The notes under the pieces are model-generated. The model was given only the letters and a program-made list of their open reading frames with translations, ran no database searches and had not been told where the DNA came from. A stretch of DNA of 48,367 nucleotides from the IMG/VR virus record IMGVR_UViG_3300025410_000028, positions 1 to 48,367 of that record; one strand, given 5' to 3'. This stretch comes from a virus. Below, piece after piece: positions 21,194 to 45,474 of the stretch. A program made the position numbers and the translations under genes. Numbering within the stretch: position 1 is the first letter of the stretch; each line of letters starts with the position of its first letter.

Positions 21194-21267
21194 GATCCCA
21201 TAGATCAATTGGTTAGATCGCTACCCTGTCACGGTAGAGGTTGCGGGTTCAAGTCCCGTTGGGATCG
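21194..21267 (+). tRNA. tRNA-Asp (GTC)
   Basis: Acceptor GATCCCA/TGGGATC, anticodon loop CTGTCAC, T-arm GCGGGTTCAAGTCCCGT. Discriminator G, CCA not encoded. The only plus-strand tRNA in the window, away from the minus-strand cluster. Confidence 0.95.
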
Positions 21268-21282
21268 CATAGTAAGATTTAT

Positions 21283-36430: not shown

Positions 36431-36461
36431 TTATATTCTTTCTATTAGTAGTTATATTGCG

Positions 36462-36535
36462 TACCCCTGAAGAGATTCGAACTCCCGACCTGATGGGTAG
36501 AAACCATATGCTCTAATCCACTGAGCTACAGGGGC
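36462..36535 (-). tRNA. tRNA-Arg (TCT)
   Basis: Minus strand: acceptor GCCCCTG/CAGGGGT, anticodon loop TTTCTAC, T-arm GGGAGTTCGAATCTC. Discriminator A, no encoded CCA. Isolated from the main tRNA cluster. Confidence 0.93.
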
Positions 36536-38921: not shown

Positions 38922-39672
38922 TTTTATTTTTTATTTCTGTTACAAACATATTAAATATATCATCTTGATTTCTATTATTGCTTGCTGTATTTTTAAATAA
39001 ATACTTAAAATTAAAATTAAAAAGTAAATCGTTGGTATGGTTGTCCCATGAAGTCCAATATAAATCAATATTAGATGCTTCGCAATATTGTTCAAGTGCT
39101 CTGACAAAATGAAGATATCTTATAATGGTTATTTCAACTGGCAAATTTTTTGGTTCTGCCATTTCATTATGTTCTTTCCCGCCTTCTTGATTTATATCAT
39201 TTTGATAAAATAGTTTTGGCTTAAAAGCTTTACTCTCTACCCAAAAACCAATATCTCTTGTTACATCTGGTAAATATAAAAATAATTTTTCTGGATTTCC
39301 AAATTGTTTGCAATATTTAAAAACATTTGAAACTATTTTTTCTACTGATGCTCCAGGGTAACAAAGATTTCTAAAATTTCCACTATTACTATCTAATTGC
39401 AAATAAAGTTTTTTTGCCCAACCTTCATCTTCTTCAATATCCATGGGCATTGTTAACTCGCATCCACCAAATAAAATATGATTTTTAGGAGTTTCATTAA
39501 AGTCATCGCACCTTAATCCATAATTATTTAATCTGTAAGAAGCTAAATTTTCTGCGTTTCCTGACTGCATAAAAGGAGGTAATGCTTCTACAGTAGGTTC
39601 TACAATGTCACTAAACCACATCCTTTGTGGCTCTACTATTTCATTAATAATTTCATAATAAGTTTTATTCAC
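38911..39672 (-). CDS. SGNH-hydrolase-like protein
   Basis: 253 residues from GTG 39672, which overlaps the carbamoyltransferase stop (GTGA) and has AGGAG 8 bases upstream. ILFGGCELTM corresponds to the GDS-type block, and LYLPDVTRDIG and WTSWDN match blocks in its paralog at 41166 (FILMPNVGR, WTTWD). The catalytic serine is replaced by C or E in the block, so activity is uncertain. It may remove or transfer acyl groups. Confidence 0.6.
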   Translation of the reverse strand: MNKTYYEIINEIVEPQRMWFSDIVEPTVEALPPFMQSGNAENLASYRLNNYGLRCDDFNETPKNHILFGGCELTMPMDIEEDEGWAKKLYLQLDSNSGNFRNLCYPGASVEKIVSNVFKYCKQFGNPEKLFLYLPDVTRDIGFWVESKAFKPKLFYQNDINQEGGKEHNEMAEPKNLPVEITIIRYLHFVRALEQYCEASNIDLYWTSWDNHTNDLLFNFNFKYLFKNTASNNRNQDDIFNMFVTEIKNKNVK

Positions 39673-41093
39673 TTTACTATCTCCTGTCCATAATATTCTT
39701 CCCAAGATTTTATATCATTCCAATCATTTAAAATCGGTTGCCCTTTAATATTTAAACTTGTATTAAGCAAAACTGGTACACCCGTTAACTTATACCATTC
39801 TGATAGTACGGAATAAAGGCCTGGATGTTGATCTTTATTAACTGTTTGAACTCTTGATGTACCGTCTTTGTGTACAACTGCAGGTATTAAATCTGGCTTT
39901 AAACATTTTACCGCATATTGCATATATGGAGTTGGCCTTCCCTTTGGCATTTTAAACCATTCATTTGCATGCTCTTCCATAACAACTGGAGCAAATGGCC
40001 TAAACATTTCTCTTTGTTTAATTTGATTCACTCTGTCTTTTACATCAATATGTGTTGGATCTGCCAATATACTTCGATTGCCCAATGCTCTGGGTCCAAA
40101 CTCTGCACGTCCTGCTGCAACTGGTGCTATACCTTTACTGACTAATTCATCTAAAATTTTTTGAACTGGATATTCATTGCCTAAATCGTGCCCAAGGTAA
40201 GGCCCCTCCCATTTTATATGGGAACCACGTAACGCCAAAGCGGCCCCCAAACTAGACCCAGCATCCCCTGGGTTTGGCATTATCCAAATATCATCAAATA
40301 GATCCCATAAAATAGTATTTGCAGAACAGTTTAATGCACATCCGCCCATAAATACAAGTTTTGTTTTTCCAGTTTTCTTTCTTGCGTGTTGCATAAATTC
40401 ATACAATCTTCTTTCATATACAAGTTGTGCTGCTGCTGCAATATGAAATTTGTCTATTTCGTTTGGAACATGCCCCCAATCAATTATACCTTTGTGAAAG
40501 TTATATTTTTGCTTATTGATACTCGGAAAATACTCATTAACTTTTTTAAAATATTTGTTTGGATTACCATATGCAGCCATACCCATCATGATATATTCTT
40601 CTTGATTAGGGATAAGACCAATTAATTGTGTAAAAGCTGAATAGAATAATCCAAAACTGAGGGGGTAGTTTTTTTTCTCAACTAAAGATATTTTTTCGCC
40701 AACTCCCGTCCAAATTGTTGATGTATTAAATTCTCCAATTGCGTCCAAAACAACTATAAGGGCATCATAAAACGAACTTGTGTAATACCCTGCTGCAGCA
40801 TGAGAGTAATGATGTTTAAATTCTTTAGTTTTTTTAGCAACCCAAATTGGTTTCCAGTCTGCAGTGCCACCACGTAATTTAATTCTTAATCTTTTTAAGC
40901 AAGATTTTTCATAATAAGCTGATTGTTCAGGTATTCCATAATTATAAAGATCAGTCATAATTTCATCATTATTGTACCAATCATTTTTTATTTTGCTGTA
41001 CCTTTCTGCATGGCTTGCAAACAATATCTTATCTTTACTAATCAAAGACATGCCAGCATCATGAGATGTTTCATTTATTCCAATTATGTTCAT
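39669..41093 (-). CDS. Carbamoyltransferase, NodU/CmcH/TobZ family
   Basis: 474 residues. The N-terminal Kae1-like domain has NETSHDAG and HHYSHAA (H94, H95, H98, metal and carbamoyl-adenylate site). FMGGCALNCSAN (about 250), AGRAEFGPRALGNRSILADP (about 335-354), FRPFAP and NTSLNIKGQPI form the YrdC-like C-terminal site region. It moves a carbamoyl group from carbamoyl phosphate, via ATP, to a hydroxyl of a sugar or natural product. Slightly short (usual 550-590), lacking part of the middle. Confidence 0.9.
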   Translation of the reverse strand: MNIIGINETSHDAGMSLISKDKILFASHAERYSKIKNDWYNNDEIMTDLYNYGIPEQSAYYEKSCLKRLRIKLRGGTADWKPIWVAKKTKEFKHHYSHAAAGYYTSSFYDALIVVLDAIGEFNTSTIWTGVGEKISLVEKKNYPLSFGLFYSAFTQLIGLIPNQEEYIMMGMAAYGNPNKYFKKVNEYFPSINKQKYNFHKGIIDWGHVPNEIDKFHIAAAAQLVYERRLYEFMQHARKKTGKTKLVFMGGCALNCSANTILWDLFDDIWIMPNPGDAGSSLGAALALRGSHIKWEGPYLGHDLGNEYPVQKILDELVSKGIAPVAAGRAEFGPRALGNRSILADPTHIDVKDRVNQIKQREMFRPFAPVVMEEHANEWFKMPKGRPTPYMQYAVKCLKPDLIPAVVHKDGTSRVQTVNKDQHPGLYSVLSEWYKLTGVPVLLNTSLNIKGQPILNDWNDIKSWEEYYGQEIVK

Positions 41094-41165
41094 TAATATG
41101 TAAAACCTTTTGTTTTTCTTAATTCTTTATTAATTTTTTTAAATTTAAACCATATAATTATTTTT

Positions 41166-42044
41166 TTAATCAATTTGCCAACCTCTTTTTTTTATCTCTT
41201 TTTCAAATGAATCTGCCCAATATTCATGATATAAATTTCCTGGATGACCATCTCTTTTATCCCAATCATATTTTTTAAAATTACCGTCTTTTCTTATTTC
41301 TTTAACAAATTTTGACATATCTTCAGTATAAATTGGAAAAAAGTTTTTAAAGTTTATTTGATTAAAATTTTCTATTTCAGCAAGGTCCCATGTTGTCCAT
41401 AATAATTTAACATTGTTTTGTTCACAAAAAAATTCAAAAAACTTCCATCCCATTACAAAGTTTATAAACTTTTCTTTGTGTTCTTCTGGAGTCAATGCAG
41501 TATAATTAGGCCTTTTATTACTTATAAATTCAGTTGACTCTTCGTATCTCTGAACATATTCCCAGCGTGACTCTTTTTTGTCCCAAGTATAAAATCTTCC
41601 AACATTTGGCATTAAAATAAAGTAATATTCAGGCATTCCATACTTCTTTACATAAATCATAAAATTATTTATAATTTTTTGCCAGCCCCAGCCACCTTTT
41701 GCTAAATTAAAAAATCCATCAGAGTTTTTAATTTTTAAATTTAATTTATAGCTCCATATATCATTTAAATTTGAAGCAACACCTTCTGTATTTGAACATC
41801 CAGAAAATAAAACGTGAGTGCCTTGATGATCTACTTTAAAATCATCAGATCTAAAAAAATCAGAATTGTATTTGTAATTTATATCTTTATCATCAATACC
41901 ATTTAATATCACTTCTACTGGGATTTGTGAAAATTCTTTGACGTTATCATTTCCCTCTGCCCAAGTCTTATCAAATTGATCAAAAAAAACATCCATTGCG
42001 TTTGAAGGATTTATTTTGTTTATGGTAAATTTTGAATTTAACAT
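41166..42044 (-). CDS. SGNH-hydrolase-like protein
   Basis: 292 residues. HVLFSGCSNTEGVAS is the GDS/GCS-type nucleophile block, FNLAKGGWGWQKI resembles the G block, FILMPNVGR the N block, and DGHPGNLYHEYWAD near the C-terminus the D-x-x-H block. The serine after GC makes an active esterase or acyltransferase possible. Paralog of 38911. The 72-base gap downstream is AT-rich with no clear signal. Confidence 0.65.
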   Translation of the reverse strand: MLNSKFTINKINPSNAMDVFFDQFDKTWAEGNDNVKEFSQIPVEVILNGIDDKDINYKYNSDFFRSDDFKVDHQGTHVLFSGCSNTEGVASNLNDIWSYKLNLKIKNSDGFFNLAKGGWGWQKIINNFMIYVKKYGMPEYYFILMPNVGRFYTWDKKESRWEYVQRYEESTEFISNKRPNYTALTPEEHKEKFINFVMGWKFFEFFCEQNNVKLLWTTWDLAEIENFNQINFKNFFPIYTEDMSKFVKEIRKDGNFKKYDWDKRDGHPGNLYHEYWADSFEKEIKKRGWQID

Positions 42045-42047
42045 TTT

Positions 42048-42740
42048 TTAACCTATTCTTTTTAAATAAATATCATAAAAACCTAAATTATGAAGTGCTA
42101 GGCCGTCAACTTTCCAATTTTTATTATAGTGTAAAAATTCATTTACTGCTTGAAATACGCCGTAGCTTTTTTCTTCTATAATACCATCCCAAATAAGATA
42201 ATCATTTAAACCAATTATACCATTAACAGCAATTAATTTTGAGGCATCAAATAAAGCAGGGGTAACAAATTCCCTATCATTATTAGAATCTATGTATATA
42301 TAATCATATTCATATTTTAATTTTGGCAAAATGTATCTGCTGTCACCTTTAATGGTTAATACATTTTTATATTTAGAAAATAAATCTTTTATGTATTGCT
42401 CATGTGTGTCTGAAGTATAACTACCATGTGGTTCATTACAAGAACAAATATTATTAAATCTTTGCCCCCAACAAAGATGATCTTGGTTGTATGTGTCTAA
42501 CAAATGTATGCATCTTGTAGATTTTTTTTCTACTAATTTTTTAGAATATGCGCCCCATGCAACACCAATCTCCAAGTATCGGATCCCCTCTGGAAGACTA
42601 TTGATATATTCATATCTATCTGAAAATAATTTAGCATTATTTAATTGATATTGATTAATTTCATGTGAATCTTCTATTTCATTTTCTAACGGTCTAGAGT
42701 AGTCTTTCCAGTCCATCCTGTGCTTAATGTTTTTTGACAT
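42048..42740 (-). CDS. Class I methyltransferase, Methyltransf_24-like
   Basis: 230 residues. YLEIGVAWGAYSKKL is motif I, HLLDTYNQ the acidic loop, and YDYIYIDSNND the motif IV region, as in the TylF/Methyltransf_24 group of sugar and small-molecule O-methyltransferases. Located between an SGNH-like gene and the flavin monooxygenase gene. Confidence 0.78.
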   Translation of the reverse strand: MSKNIKHRMDWKDYSRPLENEIEDSHEINQYQLNNAKLFSDRYEYINSLPEGIRYLEIGVAWGAYSKKLVEKKSTRCIHLLDTYNQDHLCWGQRFNNICSCNEPHGSYTSDTHEQYIKDLFSKYKNVLTIKGDSRYILPKLKYEYDYIYIDSNNDREFVTPALFDASKLIAVNGIIGLNDYLIWDGIIEEKSYGVFQAVNEFLHYNKNWKVDGLALHNLGFYDIYLKRIG

Positions 42741-42753
42741 TTTTATACCAATT

Positions 42754-43605
42754 CTACGACAATGTTTTTACAAGATTAAATATAGGCTTAAGATTTTTTT
42801 GATTTGTGACAATCATAAAATCATTTATTCCGTATTGCTCTGAAATTTTTTTTAATTGTTTAATTACACTATCCATATTTCCTTTAATATTATGTTCATT
42901 TTTAATTGTTCCTACAATATTTTCTTTATTAGTTCTATTGATTGGATTATACACATATTCAATTTCTTCACTTAACTCTTCTTCAGTTTCTCTTATCAAT
43001 GGATCAATTATTAATACTATTTTTTTATCTTTTATTAAGCTTAAAGCACTATCTAGTGTATGCATTTCACAAATTAAATAATCAGCATGTTTATTTCCAA
43101 GATTTACAGTCAATGGAGAATTAGAAATAGTATAAGTTTCTGGCCAATTCTCAAATTTTAAATCAATAACATTTTCAAAACCGCCACGCATTATATAAAA
43201 AAATTTTTCGGCCCATAAATCTGTTAACTGTATTCTTTTATCAACACTATTAATTAAAGATGAATCATAAGGAAAATTTTTAAGAGTAAAATTTTCTTCC
43301 CAATCTCCAGAAAATTTACCAGCGACTAAATTAAGAGCAACCCTGTCTCCATAATTTAATTTTATTGTTTTAAACATTTTTGCTGCATATTCAGGAGTAA
43401 GTGAATATGGCCTTAAAGCCATCATAAATTTAATATTTTTTGTTTCTTTTATTAAATCTGGTAATAACATCATATAATCTGTACCAGTTGATCCATAGGT
43501 CAAAAGAACTGAATATAAACCTGCATCATCAACTTCCTTTGCCATTTCTATAAGTCCCTCTAAATCATGGGACCACCTAAGCCTATTCATCCAATGGAAT
43601 CTCAT
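42754..43605 (-). CDS. Luciferase-like flavin monooxygenase (LLM)
   Basis: 283 residues. EMAKEVDDAGLYSVLLTYGS (about 19-38), IKFMMALRPYSLTPEYAAKM and LNYGDRVALNLVAGKF are the barrel signatures of bacterial luciferase-like enzymes (FMN or F420 dependent). It would oxidise an organic substrate. The start is leaderless: TATAAT, 6 bases, ATG. First gene of the modification cassette, directly after the tRNA cluster. Confidence 0.82.
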   Translation of the reverse strand: MRFHWMNRLRWSHDLEGLIEMAKEVDDAGLYSVLLTYGSTGTDYMMLLPDLIKETKNIKFMMALRPYSLTPEYAAKMFKTIKLNYGDRVALNLVAGKFSGDWEENFTLKNFPYDSSLINSVDKRIQLTDLWAEKFFYIMRGGFENVIDLKFENWPETYTISNSPLTVNLGNKHADYLICEMHTLDSALSLIKDKKIVLIIDPLIRETEEELSEEIEYVYNPINRTNKENIVGTIKNEHNIKGNMDSVIKQLKKISEQYGINDFMIVTNQKNLKPIFNLVKTLS

Positions 43606-43632
43606 ATTACAATTATACCTTACTATTTATAG

Positions 43633-43705
43633 TGCCTCCAGTAGGTTTCGAACCTACGACCCGCAGATTAAAAGTCTGCTGCTCTACCAACTGAGCTATA
43701 GAAGC
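43633..43705 (-). tRNA. tRNA-Lys (TTT)
   Basis: Acceptor GCTTCTA/TGGAGGC with G-U pairs, anticodon loop CTTTTAA, T-arm GTAGGTTCGAAACCTAC. Discriminator A. Confidence 0.95.
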
Positions 43706-43706
43706 G

Positions 43707-43779
43707 TACCCCAAGACAGATTCGAACTGTCGCTGTATGGATTTTAAGTCCACTATCTCTACCACTGGATTACTGGGGC
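43707..43779 (-). tRNA. tRNA with anticodon TAA (Leu), class I body
   Basis: Acceptor GCCCCAG/TTGGGGT, anticodon stem GTGGA/TCCAT with loop CTTAAAA (anticodon TAA, reads UUA), T-arm GACAGTTCGAATCTGTC. The variable region is only about 5 bases, whereas tRNA-Leu normally has a long variable arm. Confidence 0.8.
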
Positions 43780-43783
43780 ATTG

Positions 43784-43854
43784 CTCCCTGGCCTGGATTC
43801 GAACCAAGATACTTGCCTCCAAAGGGCAATGTCCTACCATTAGACGACCTGGGA
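43784..43854 (-). tRNA. tRNA-Gln (TTG)
   Basis: Acceptor TCCCAGG/CCAGGGA (one A-A mismatch), anticodon stem TTGCC/GGCAA with loop CTTTGGA, T-arm with GGTTCGAATCC. Discriminator G. Confidence 0.9.
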
Positions 43855-43859
43855 ATGTG

Positions 43860-43930
43860 AGCGGATGATGAGAATCGAACTCACCCCTTCTGCTTGGAAG
43901 GCAGAGGCACTACCAATATGCAACATCCGC
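43860..43930 (-). tRNA. tRNA-Gly (TCC)
   Basis: Acceptor GCGGATG/CATCCGC, anticodon stem TCTGC/GCAGA with loop CTTCCAA, discriminator T as usual for glycine tRNAs. Confidence 0.93.
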
Positions 43931-43933
43931 AAG

Positions 43934-44005
43934 TAGCCCCACAGGGACTTGAACCCTGTTCATCAAGATGAAAGCCTGATATCCTAACCCATAGAAGATG
44001 GGGCC
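43934..44005 (-). tRNA. tRNA-Glu (TTC)
   Basis: Acceptor GGCCCCA/TGGGGCT, anticodon loop CTTTCAT, T-arm CAGGGTTCAAGTCCCTG. Discriminator A. Confidence 0.92.
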
Positions 44006-44009
44006 TTGG

Positions 44010-44083
44010 TGGAGCAGGTAGGACTTGAACCTACGATTACCGAATTATGAGTTCGGGGCTTTGACCAACTAAGCTACTACTCC
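44010..44083 (-). tRNA. tRNA-Met (CAT)
   Basis: Acceptor GGAGTAG/CTGCTCC, anticodon stem CCGAA/TTCGG with loop CTCATAA. CCA follows the discriminator A (44007-44009). CAT could also be modified to read AUA (Ile2), but a TAT tRNA-Ile is present. Confidence 0.92.
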
Positions 44084-44084
44084 G

Positions 44085-44159
44085 TACTCCAAGTAGGATT
44101 TGAACCTACAGCCGTCAGTATATAAGACTGATGCTCTCACCAGATTGAGCTATTGGAGC
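44085..44159 (-). tRNA. tRNA-Ile (TAT)
   Basis: Acceptor GCTCCAA/TTGGAGT, anticodon stem TCAGT/ACTGA with loop CTTATAT (reads AUA). T-arm GTAGGTTCAAATCCTAC. Confidence 0.9.
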
Positions 44160-44163
44160 ATTG

Positions 44164-44236
44164 CTGGGATGACAGGGATCGAACCTGTGACATTTCGATT
44201 AACAGTCGAACGCTCTGCCGTCTGAGCTACATCCCA
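44164..44236 (-). tRNA. tRNA-Asn (GTT)
   Basis: Acceptor TGGGATG/CATCCCA, anticodon stem TTCGA/TCGAA with loop CTGTTAA, T-arm ACAGGTTCGATCCCTGT. First tRNA after the structured RNA. Confidence 0.93.
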
Positions 44237-44237
44237 A

Positions 44238-44362
44238 TAAAAAGGTACGGTAGACATATTCCTGCTGCCAAATGGCTGCCCTTTACACCACGAACATACC
44301 GTTCACGGGTTGTGTTATTTGTAACTATAATCACATCCTAAGGTTTGGTTGTCTACCGTACT
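44238..44362 (-). ncRNA. Structured RNA heading the tRNA cluster
   Basis: On the minus strand GTACGGTAGACA (44361-44350) pairs perfectly with TGTCTACCGTAC (44256-44245), closing a 93-base interior. Inside is an 8-bp hairpin (CCGTGAAC, GGTAT loop, GTTCGTGG, with G-U pairs). The closing stem is followed by C then TTTTT. A perfect promoter (44369-44398) places the first base at about 44362, right at the stem. No tRNA, tmRNA or protein-coding pattern fits. Confidence 0.7.
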
Positions 44363-44368
44363 TCTTAT

Positions 44369-44398
44369 ATTATACTTGTTATGTTATTTATATGTCAA
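44369..44398 (-). promoter_or_regulatory. Consensus promoter of the structured RNA and tRNA cluster
   Basis: Minus strand TTGACA (44393-44398), 18 bases, TATAAT (44369-44374). The -35 box abuts the Hsp20 stop codon. Confidence 0.8.
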
Positions 44399-44815
44399 TT
44401 ACTTGATTTTAATTTGCTTTGGCTTTTTTGCTTCTGGAATTTCTCTTTCAAGCATAATGCAAAGCATTCCATTTTCAACTTCAGCACTTTTAACTTCAAT
44501 GTATTCTGCTAAGGAAAAATGTCGAGTGAATTTGCGAGTAGCAATACCCTTATGAATAAATTTATCTTCTGAATCGTTTTCGATTTCGCCCTTAATAATA
44601 AGAGTTTGATCTTCTACTGATACTGATAAATCATTTTTTGAAAATCCAGCCACTGCTAAATTGATGCAAAAATTATCGTCATCAATTTTAACAATATCAA
44701 ATGGAGGATAAGATTGTTGAACTGCATGATTATGAACTTCGTTCATTCTTGCTACCTGGCGATTAAAGCCAATAAAAAAAGGATCATTAAAAAGATCCCA
44801 TAGGTTGTTAGTCAT
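44399..44815 (-). CDS. Small heat-shock protein, Hsp20/alpha-crystallin
   Basis: 138 residues. The alpha-crystallin domain runs from about 40 to 128: FDIVKIDDDNFCINLAVAGF, SVEDQTLIIKGE, ATRKFTRHFSLAEYIEVKSA and ENGMLCIMLEREIP, as in IbpA. The C-terminal I-x-I anchor is KQIKIK. It would hold unfolded proteins. Ribosome site AAAAGGAG; perfect promoter at 44875-44903. Confidence 0.9.
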   Translation of the reverse strand: MTNNLWDLFNDPFFIGFNRQVARMNEVHNHAVQQSYPPFDIVKIDDDNFCINLAVAGFSKNDLSVSVEDQTLIIKGEIENDSEDKFIHKGIATRKFTRHFSLAEYIEVKSAEVENGMLCIMLEREIPEAKKPKQIKIK

Positions 44816-44904: not shown

Positions 44905-45474
44905 TTAATAAGAATTTAAATATTGATCATAGTAATCTTCCATGATCTTATATTGCTTTTGACCAAATTCAGGATCTTTTTCATCTTGTTTTTGAGTCAA
45001 ATCGTCTCCTGCAAAATGAAAATAAATCATACTTAAATATTCACCTTCTTTAAAAATTCTTTTAGGTCTCCAATGAATATTATTAATGCCTGAAAAAGCT
45101 ATTGCTTGATTATCTTTTAATATTAATCTATTGCCTTCTAAGTATATTGACCATTCAATATTAGATTCAACTTGATAATCTATAATAAATTCAGTTAGGT
45201 TAGAGTCTGTATGCGGTACAAGTCTGGGTTGTCCGTAATCTGATGCAAATGTTGCATGAACATATTCAGATAAGTTTAATTTTTTACCATATTTTTCACT
45301 GGCAACTCTTTCTAATTTTTCTTTTATATTATTTGAAACTTGAAATGGTGTGTATAATCTTCCCATATGTTCGGTAAAAGCAACACCTTTATTTTTTTCA
45401 ATTGAACTTTTAATTTCAAACAAATCTTCTGATGAAAGCAAATTGTCCAAAATATTATATTTTGTTAGCATCAT
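44905..45474 (-). CDS. Putative 2OG-Fe(II) oxygenase-like protein
   Basis: 189 residues. RLVPHTDSN gives H88-x-D90 and NNIHWRP gives H134, in the right order with beta strands between (WSIYLEGNRLIL, NQAIAFSG). The usual arginine ten residues after the distal His is not obvious (R136 and R139 are near), so cosubstrate binding may differ. ATGATG start; the second ATG (45471) has the better ribosome-site spacing. Confidence 0.6.
   Translation of the reverse strand: MMLTKYNILDNLLSSEDLFEIKSSIEKNKGVAFTEHMGRLYTPFQVSNNIKEKLERVASEKYGKKLNLSEYVHATFASDYGQPRLVPHTDSNLTEFIIDYQVESNIEWSIYLEGNRLILKDNQAIAFSGINNIHWRPKRIFKEGEYLSMIYFHFAGDDLTQKQDEKDPEFGQKQYKIMEDYYDQYLNSY

Follow-up and report, generated by a model that had tools for sequence, protein, structure and literature searches.

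Here we describe a small structured RNA encoded in IMG/VR virus record IMGVR_UViG_3300025410_000028, of which the whole stretch of 48,367 nucleotides was analyzed (the window). The RNA is about 125 nt long (44238..44362, minus strand) and lies between an Hsp20 gene upstream (44399..44815, minus strand; PF00011, E 2e-20) and eight tRNA genes on its other side (Asn, Ile, Met, Glu, Gly, Gln, Leu, Lys; 43632..44236), which are outside the RNA and follow on the same strand, as a previous sequence-only reading had noted. That reading left the strand of the element itself unnamed; the element is real and its transcription is assigned to the minus strand. Single tRNA genes (Asp, Arg) also occur apart from the cluster, at 21194-21268 (plus strand) and 36461-36535 (minus strand). 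The stretches 39669-43605 and 44905-45474 carry phage metabolic genes such as a Nol-like carbamoyltransferase, a luciferase-like monooxygenase and a methyltransferase, with a weak ferrochelatase-like match among them.

Promoter, closing stem and fold

A sigma-70-type promoter, TTGACA-18-TATAAT (44369..44398, minus strand), matches the consensus at 12 of 12 positions, with TTGACA at 44398-44393, TATAAT at 44374-44369 and a spacer of 18 nt. The predicted transcription start, 44362/44361, lies at the base of P1, a 12-bp stem whose 5′ arm GTACGGTAGACA occupies 44350..44361 and whose 3′ arm TGTCTACCGTAC (44245..44256) follows 93 nt away and runs into CTTTTT (44239..44244), all on the minus strand. 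The perfect promoter, the start at the base of the stem and the distant second arm followed by five T are all as originally described. CTTTTT is a possible weak terminator or processing point; a terminator scan of the window element did not call it, and other members of the family have clear terminators. The tRNA-Asn gene (44236-44163, minus strand) starts two bases past it.

Upon folding, the RNA reaches a z-score of -3.65 and surpasses all 200 shuffled sequences. The internal hairpin with a GGTAT loop that had been proposed is present (CCGTGAAC/GTTCGTGG, with two G.U pairs) but is unused in the minimum-energy fold. ARAGORN, the Rfam tRNA and tmRNA models and the open reading frames all fail to explain the element, in agreement with the earlier view that no tRNA or protein fits. 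Rfam 15 at gathering thresholds returned tRNA matches only for the window and 15 relative loci, and at permissive settings the window element, L400 and nine other loci likewise yielded no above-threshold match to any Rfam family at the element.

Relatives and covariation of the stem

Searching IMG/VR for the Hsp20 gene provides relatives independently of the RNA, and only those derived in this way are unbiased (L002-L006, L008 and L010). In five close relatives (L002-L006) the RNA directly follows Hsp20, L008 has a divergent copy at the same place with one extra base in the core, and in L010/L011 the RNA is found elsewhere, directly before tRNA-Asn. Each of these groups has a P1 sequence of its own (GTACGGTAGACA, GTACGGTAAGCAA, GTACAGCAGACA, CCCCATACAGG) with the complement always present, and the loop keeps CTTAGGATG(nn)ATAGTTAC despite the changed stem. 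L002-L006, L117 and L131 have their promoter at the corresponding place.

Scanning IMG/VR for this core pattern identified 91 stretches and revealed a large family of phage RNAs, most of them 77-136 nt long, closed by a stem and located in phage tRNA clusters; the invariance of the core in that set is partly built in, because the pattern scans demanded the exact core. A same-strand tRNA gene is nearby for 46 of the 75 core matches listed, and members are located before, between or after tRNA genes or have no tRNA close by. No member faces an opposite-strand tRNA gene in its own locus, the sole exception (L292) being E. coli rDNA. Matches that look like chance or coding sequence were rejected (L119, L121, L128, L150, L296, L300, L304, L305, and the gap-4 and gap-5 GACG matches). 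Comparing ten core variants with the INPHARED isolate phages by BLAST gave no match, so these cores have no cultured representative there; Flavobacterium phage immuto has no clear copy, and none of 396 actinobacterial genomes contains the gap-2 core. The element appears to be phage-specific. The contigs are metagenomic, and we infer their hosts.

A sequence found in L009 and L012, GACAACCTGRGCAWGTTG, was considered as a third post-Hsp20 variant and discarded: it is a separate pseudoknot-like motif, and CTACCTTAGGA is part of a changing hairpin. The motif, GACAACCTGRGCAWGTTG(n)AAAA..GCTCA, is recurrent and intergenic, looks like an H-type pseudoknot and occurs at L009:5043, L012:5383 and about 50 distinct loci (L320-L394), after Hsp20 genes and also upstream of other phage genes; one example (L328) has no Rfam match.

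Covariation of P1 was assessed on an alignment of excised P1 and core sequences, in which the longer gap of the window copy was replaced by two bases and P1 left untouched. All 12 P1 pairs show double changes across 21 distinct P1 stems, and the covariation score is 1.28, compared to 0.25 for shuffled and at most 0.235 for slid alignments. In 47 distinct flanks no P1 helix scores below 27, where shuffles average 17.5 (sd 2.6, maximum 27). Among 37 P1 stems, the non-Watson-Crick pairs comprise 14 G.U against 2 A.C, and this excess of G.U indicates that the transcript is the strand described here, the minus strand in the window. The conservation and covariation on which the proposal of a structured RNA had been made to depend were thus both found: relatives exist, and the stem covaries.

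Complementarity to helix 69 of 23S rRNA

The loop closed by P1 contains segment A, CTTAGGATG-TGATT-ATAGTTAC (44321..44342, minus strand), which is antisense to helix 69 (H69) of actinobacterial 23S rRNA. Scanning 84,980 species genomes for the core, 119 of 119 among the matches listed are actinobacterial 23S rDNA in antisense orientation. The core thus reads as H69 in reverse complement: ATAGTTAC would pair with E. coli positions 1910-1917 and CTTAGGATG with 1921-1929, corresponding to H69 and its 3′ flank, with A1918-C1920 opposite the core gap; this gap measures 2 nt in most members, but the window copy has one of 5 nt. The predicted duplex of the window core has an energy of -29.8 kcal/mol, compared to a mean of -11.8 for 1,000 shuffles (sd 2.7, best -23.5). 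Half of segment A is paired in the predicted window fold (mean unpaired probability 0.51). A control pattern, CTTAGGAGT, which matches no H69 sequence seen here, returned 0 matches versus 91 for the GATG pattern.

The remainder of the RNA aligns antisense to 23S positions 1950-2015, weakly in single members and significantly family-wide. The best placement of this non-core RNA starts at 1950-1978 in 13 of 22 non-redundant members compared to 11 % of shuffles; since the members are related, the binomial p of 8e-8 should not be read as a real probability. By homology, segment C (GTTCGTGGTG; 44286..44295, minus strand) would be antisense to about 1990-2010 and segment B (CCATTTGGCAGCAGGAA; 44259..44275, minus strand) to about 1955-1976; for the window copy alone the antisense match of B and C to 23S is not significant. 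Members of the window class are ordered P1-A-C-B-P1′. The order (C-)B-A is enclosed by a stem in L084, L293 and L294 and stands without an enclosing stem in L101, L107 and L109. The presence of the same putative antisense modules in two circularly permuted orders fits one pairing target rather than a particular fold. A self-cleaving ribozyme, first suspected from the circular permutation, was dropped once the core was recognized as antisense to 23S.

H69 varies among bacteria: CATC, GGTC and CGTC forms are all found among the 55 Actinomycetota genomes with a match, and E. coli has the GGTC form. Phage elements of the GACC form, CTTAGGACC, mirror the GGTC H69 (L293, L294, L297-L299, L301-L303, L306, L395-L401); these GGTC-directed elements fall into three gap classes, L395-L401 having the full GTT and no gap. 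They follow a T7-promoter-like sequence, as judged by eye, in L293/L294, sit within a small hairpin near a tRNA-like sequence in L397, are equipped with promoter, stem and terminator in L400, and directly follow a structural gene in L395, L396, L398, L399 and L401 (a capsid gene in L399). In L297, L299 and L301 the terminator loop keeps a second segment, TCGCTAC, antisense to 1930-1937, and the stem changes between members. Elements with CTTAGGACGTTATAGTTAC (L404-L419) are ambiguous: they may correspond to the CGTC form, or to the GGTC form minus one base.

Two observations accompany these loci. H69-antisense 19-20-mers are found in the 3′ untranslated region just past a phage structural gene and are followed by a terminator (L395, L396, L398, L399, L401, L404, L405, L407, L408, L415, L417, L419), possibly as 3′-UTR-derived RNA. 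L293:968-5167 encodes a ribonucleotide reductase of 1399 aa, about twice the usual length, with inserts that by eye look like two inteins.

The class II ribonucleotide reductase of the window is 65 % identical to Streptomyces phage proteins, and most matches are to Mycobacterium and Streptomyces phages; the host is probably actinobacterial, matching the GATG form of the element. Some genes next to GACC-form elements resemble those of Flavobacterium phage, and others those of Pseudomonas and other phages. A match between the form of the phage element and that of the host H69 is suggestive only, because L399 carries the GACC form beside a Streptomyces-phage-like capsid gene; the GGTC H69 does occur in other Actinomycetota. 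The sequence comparisons strongly support pairing with 23S rRNA; that it takes place in infected cells, and what it leads to, we infer.

Candidate action on the host ribosome

Given this complementarity, pairing with 23S rRNA is very likely the function of the RNA. The element is probably a stand-alone phage antisense RNA on host H69, hindering subunit joining or 50S maturation. P1 would close the RNA and present core A, which would pair in trans with H69 through two duplexes, 8 and 9 bp long, that flank A1918-A1919-C1920, with segments B and C adding weaker pairing to 1950-2015. On free 50S subunits, or on 23S rRNA still being made, the RNA would thereby occupy H69, which is central to intersubunit bridge B2a; the ensuing block of subunit joining or 50S maturation could give the phage control over the host ribosome pool. 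Because the phage itself needs ribosomes, a general block would have to be restricted to a certain period or to newly made subunits. A point against pairing is that mature H69 already forms a hairpin of its own. H69 forms bridge B2a and contacts the A- and P-site tRNAs; translation is strongly inhibited by the loop mutations A1912G, A1919G and Psi1917C, and 50S or 70S formation is impaired by A1916G (PMC1190176). Growth of E. coli is inhibited by a synthetic PNA directed at H69, according to the citation of Kulik 2017 in PMC7038079. From the effects of the loop mutations and of the PNA, we favor interference with free or nascent 50S subunits. That the outcome is inhibition, rather than the work of a chaperone, guide or shield, is about an even call.

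The same complementarity, namely the core matches and the family-wide placement of B and C, would equally serve an RNA that helps: a chaperone, a guide for modification of H69 or C1920, or a shield that protects H69-H71 from a toxin nuclease of the host. We consider such a role, the main rival reading, rather unlikely. A1918-C1920 lie opposite the 2-nt gap in most GATG members, and C1920 is the TlyA methylation site; for a shield, mycobacteria possess a 23S-cleaving toxin, MazF-mt6, which cuts helix 70. However, no partner protein, guide boxes or conserved neighbor gene was noticed, and the gapless members L395-L401 speak against it.

The sequence-only reading had left open a stand-alone RNA, a processing signal and an attenuator of the tRNAs. 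The first is upheld by the element's own promoter, covarying stem and relatives across many phages. A cis-acting signal for the tRNA cluster is improbable: the element does directly precede tRNA-Asn with its T run after P1, and many core matches are near same-strand tRNA genes, but members also lie past the last tRNA, between tRNAs or far from any, without the constant upstream position of a leader, and what is conserved is the rRNA-antisense core rather than the stem or anything complementary to the tRNAs. More doubtful still is that the DNA acts instead of the RNA, as an rDNA-like homing-endonuclease or recombination site or as a guide directing a nuclease to host rDNA. The core site overlaps the rDNA region used by homing elements such as I-CeuI, but bases inserted or missing inside the site, the covarying P1, the consistent strand and the terminators all favor RNA, and no recurring nuclease gene was noticed beside the element. 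Chance rRNA similarity or rDNA contamination of viral contigs can practically be set aside: given the strong conservation of H69, rDNA contamination of any kind would produce a match, but only one of eight exact-antisense matches is rDNA (L402) and the other seven lie between phage genes, the control pattern found nothing, the gap of the GATG class differs from rRNA, and member flanks do not align to rRNA operons.

As a putative stand-alone antisense RNA, the element resembles the bacterial and phage antisense small RNAs that act in trans: it has its own promoter, a short seed presented by structure and significant, conserved complementarity to a target, and several other members have a Rho-independent terminator where the window copy has only the T run after P1. 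Those RNAs target mRNA, whereas the target here would be a functional center of rRNA. C/D and H/ACA guide RNAs (snoRNAs, archaeal sRNAs) are likewise stem-closed RNAs with two rRNA-complementary guide segments, but the element belongs to bacterial phages, no C/D or ACA boxes were noticed by eye in the aligned members, and bacteria are not known to have guide-RNP proteins. The T4 tRNA cluster also contains non-tRNA RNA, the stable RNAs C and D of about 120-140 nt. The H69 PNA (Kulik 2017, via PMC7038079) has the same target helix but is a synthetic oligomer and not a natural gene. PhiKZ014, a ribosome-targeting phage factor that acts directly on the 50S during infection by clamping 5S rRNA, is a protein and not an RNA (PMC10914614). 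Our search of the open-access literature found no earlier description of a phage H69-antisense RNA, nor of a natural bacterial or phage RNA base-pairing with a functional center of rRNA.

It is an evenly balanced prospect that phages infecting several bacterial phyla use small RNAs, in part evolved independently, which pair with H69, are tuned to the host and attack or commandeer its ribosome. If true, this would add an RNA weapon to phage host takeover, in the form of an RNA-based takeover of translation, and would explain non-tRNA RNA in phage tRNA clusters. The GATG or GACC form could then serve as a host-predicting tag for uncultured phages, and H69 and 50S assembly could be probed with the element as a genetically encoded tool.
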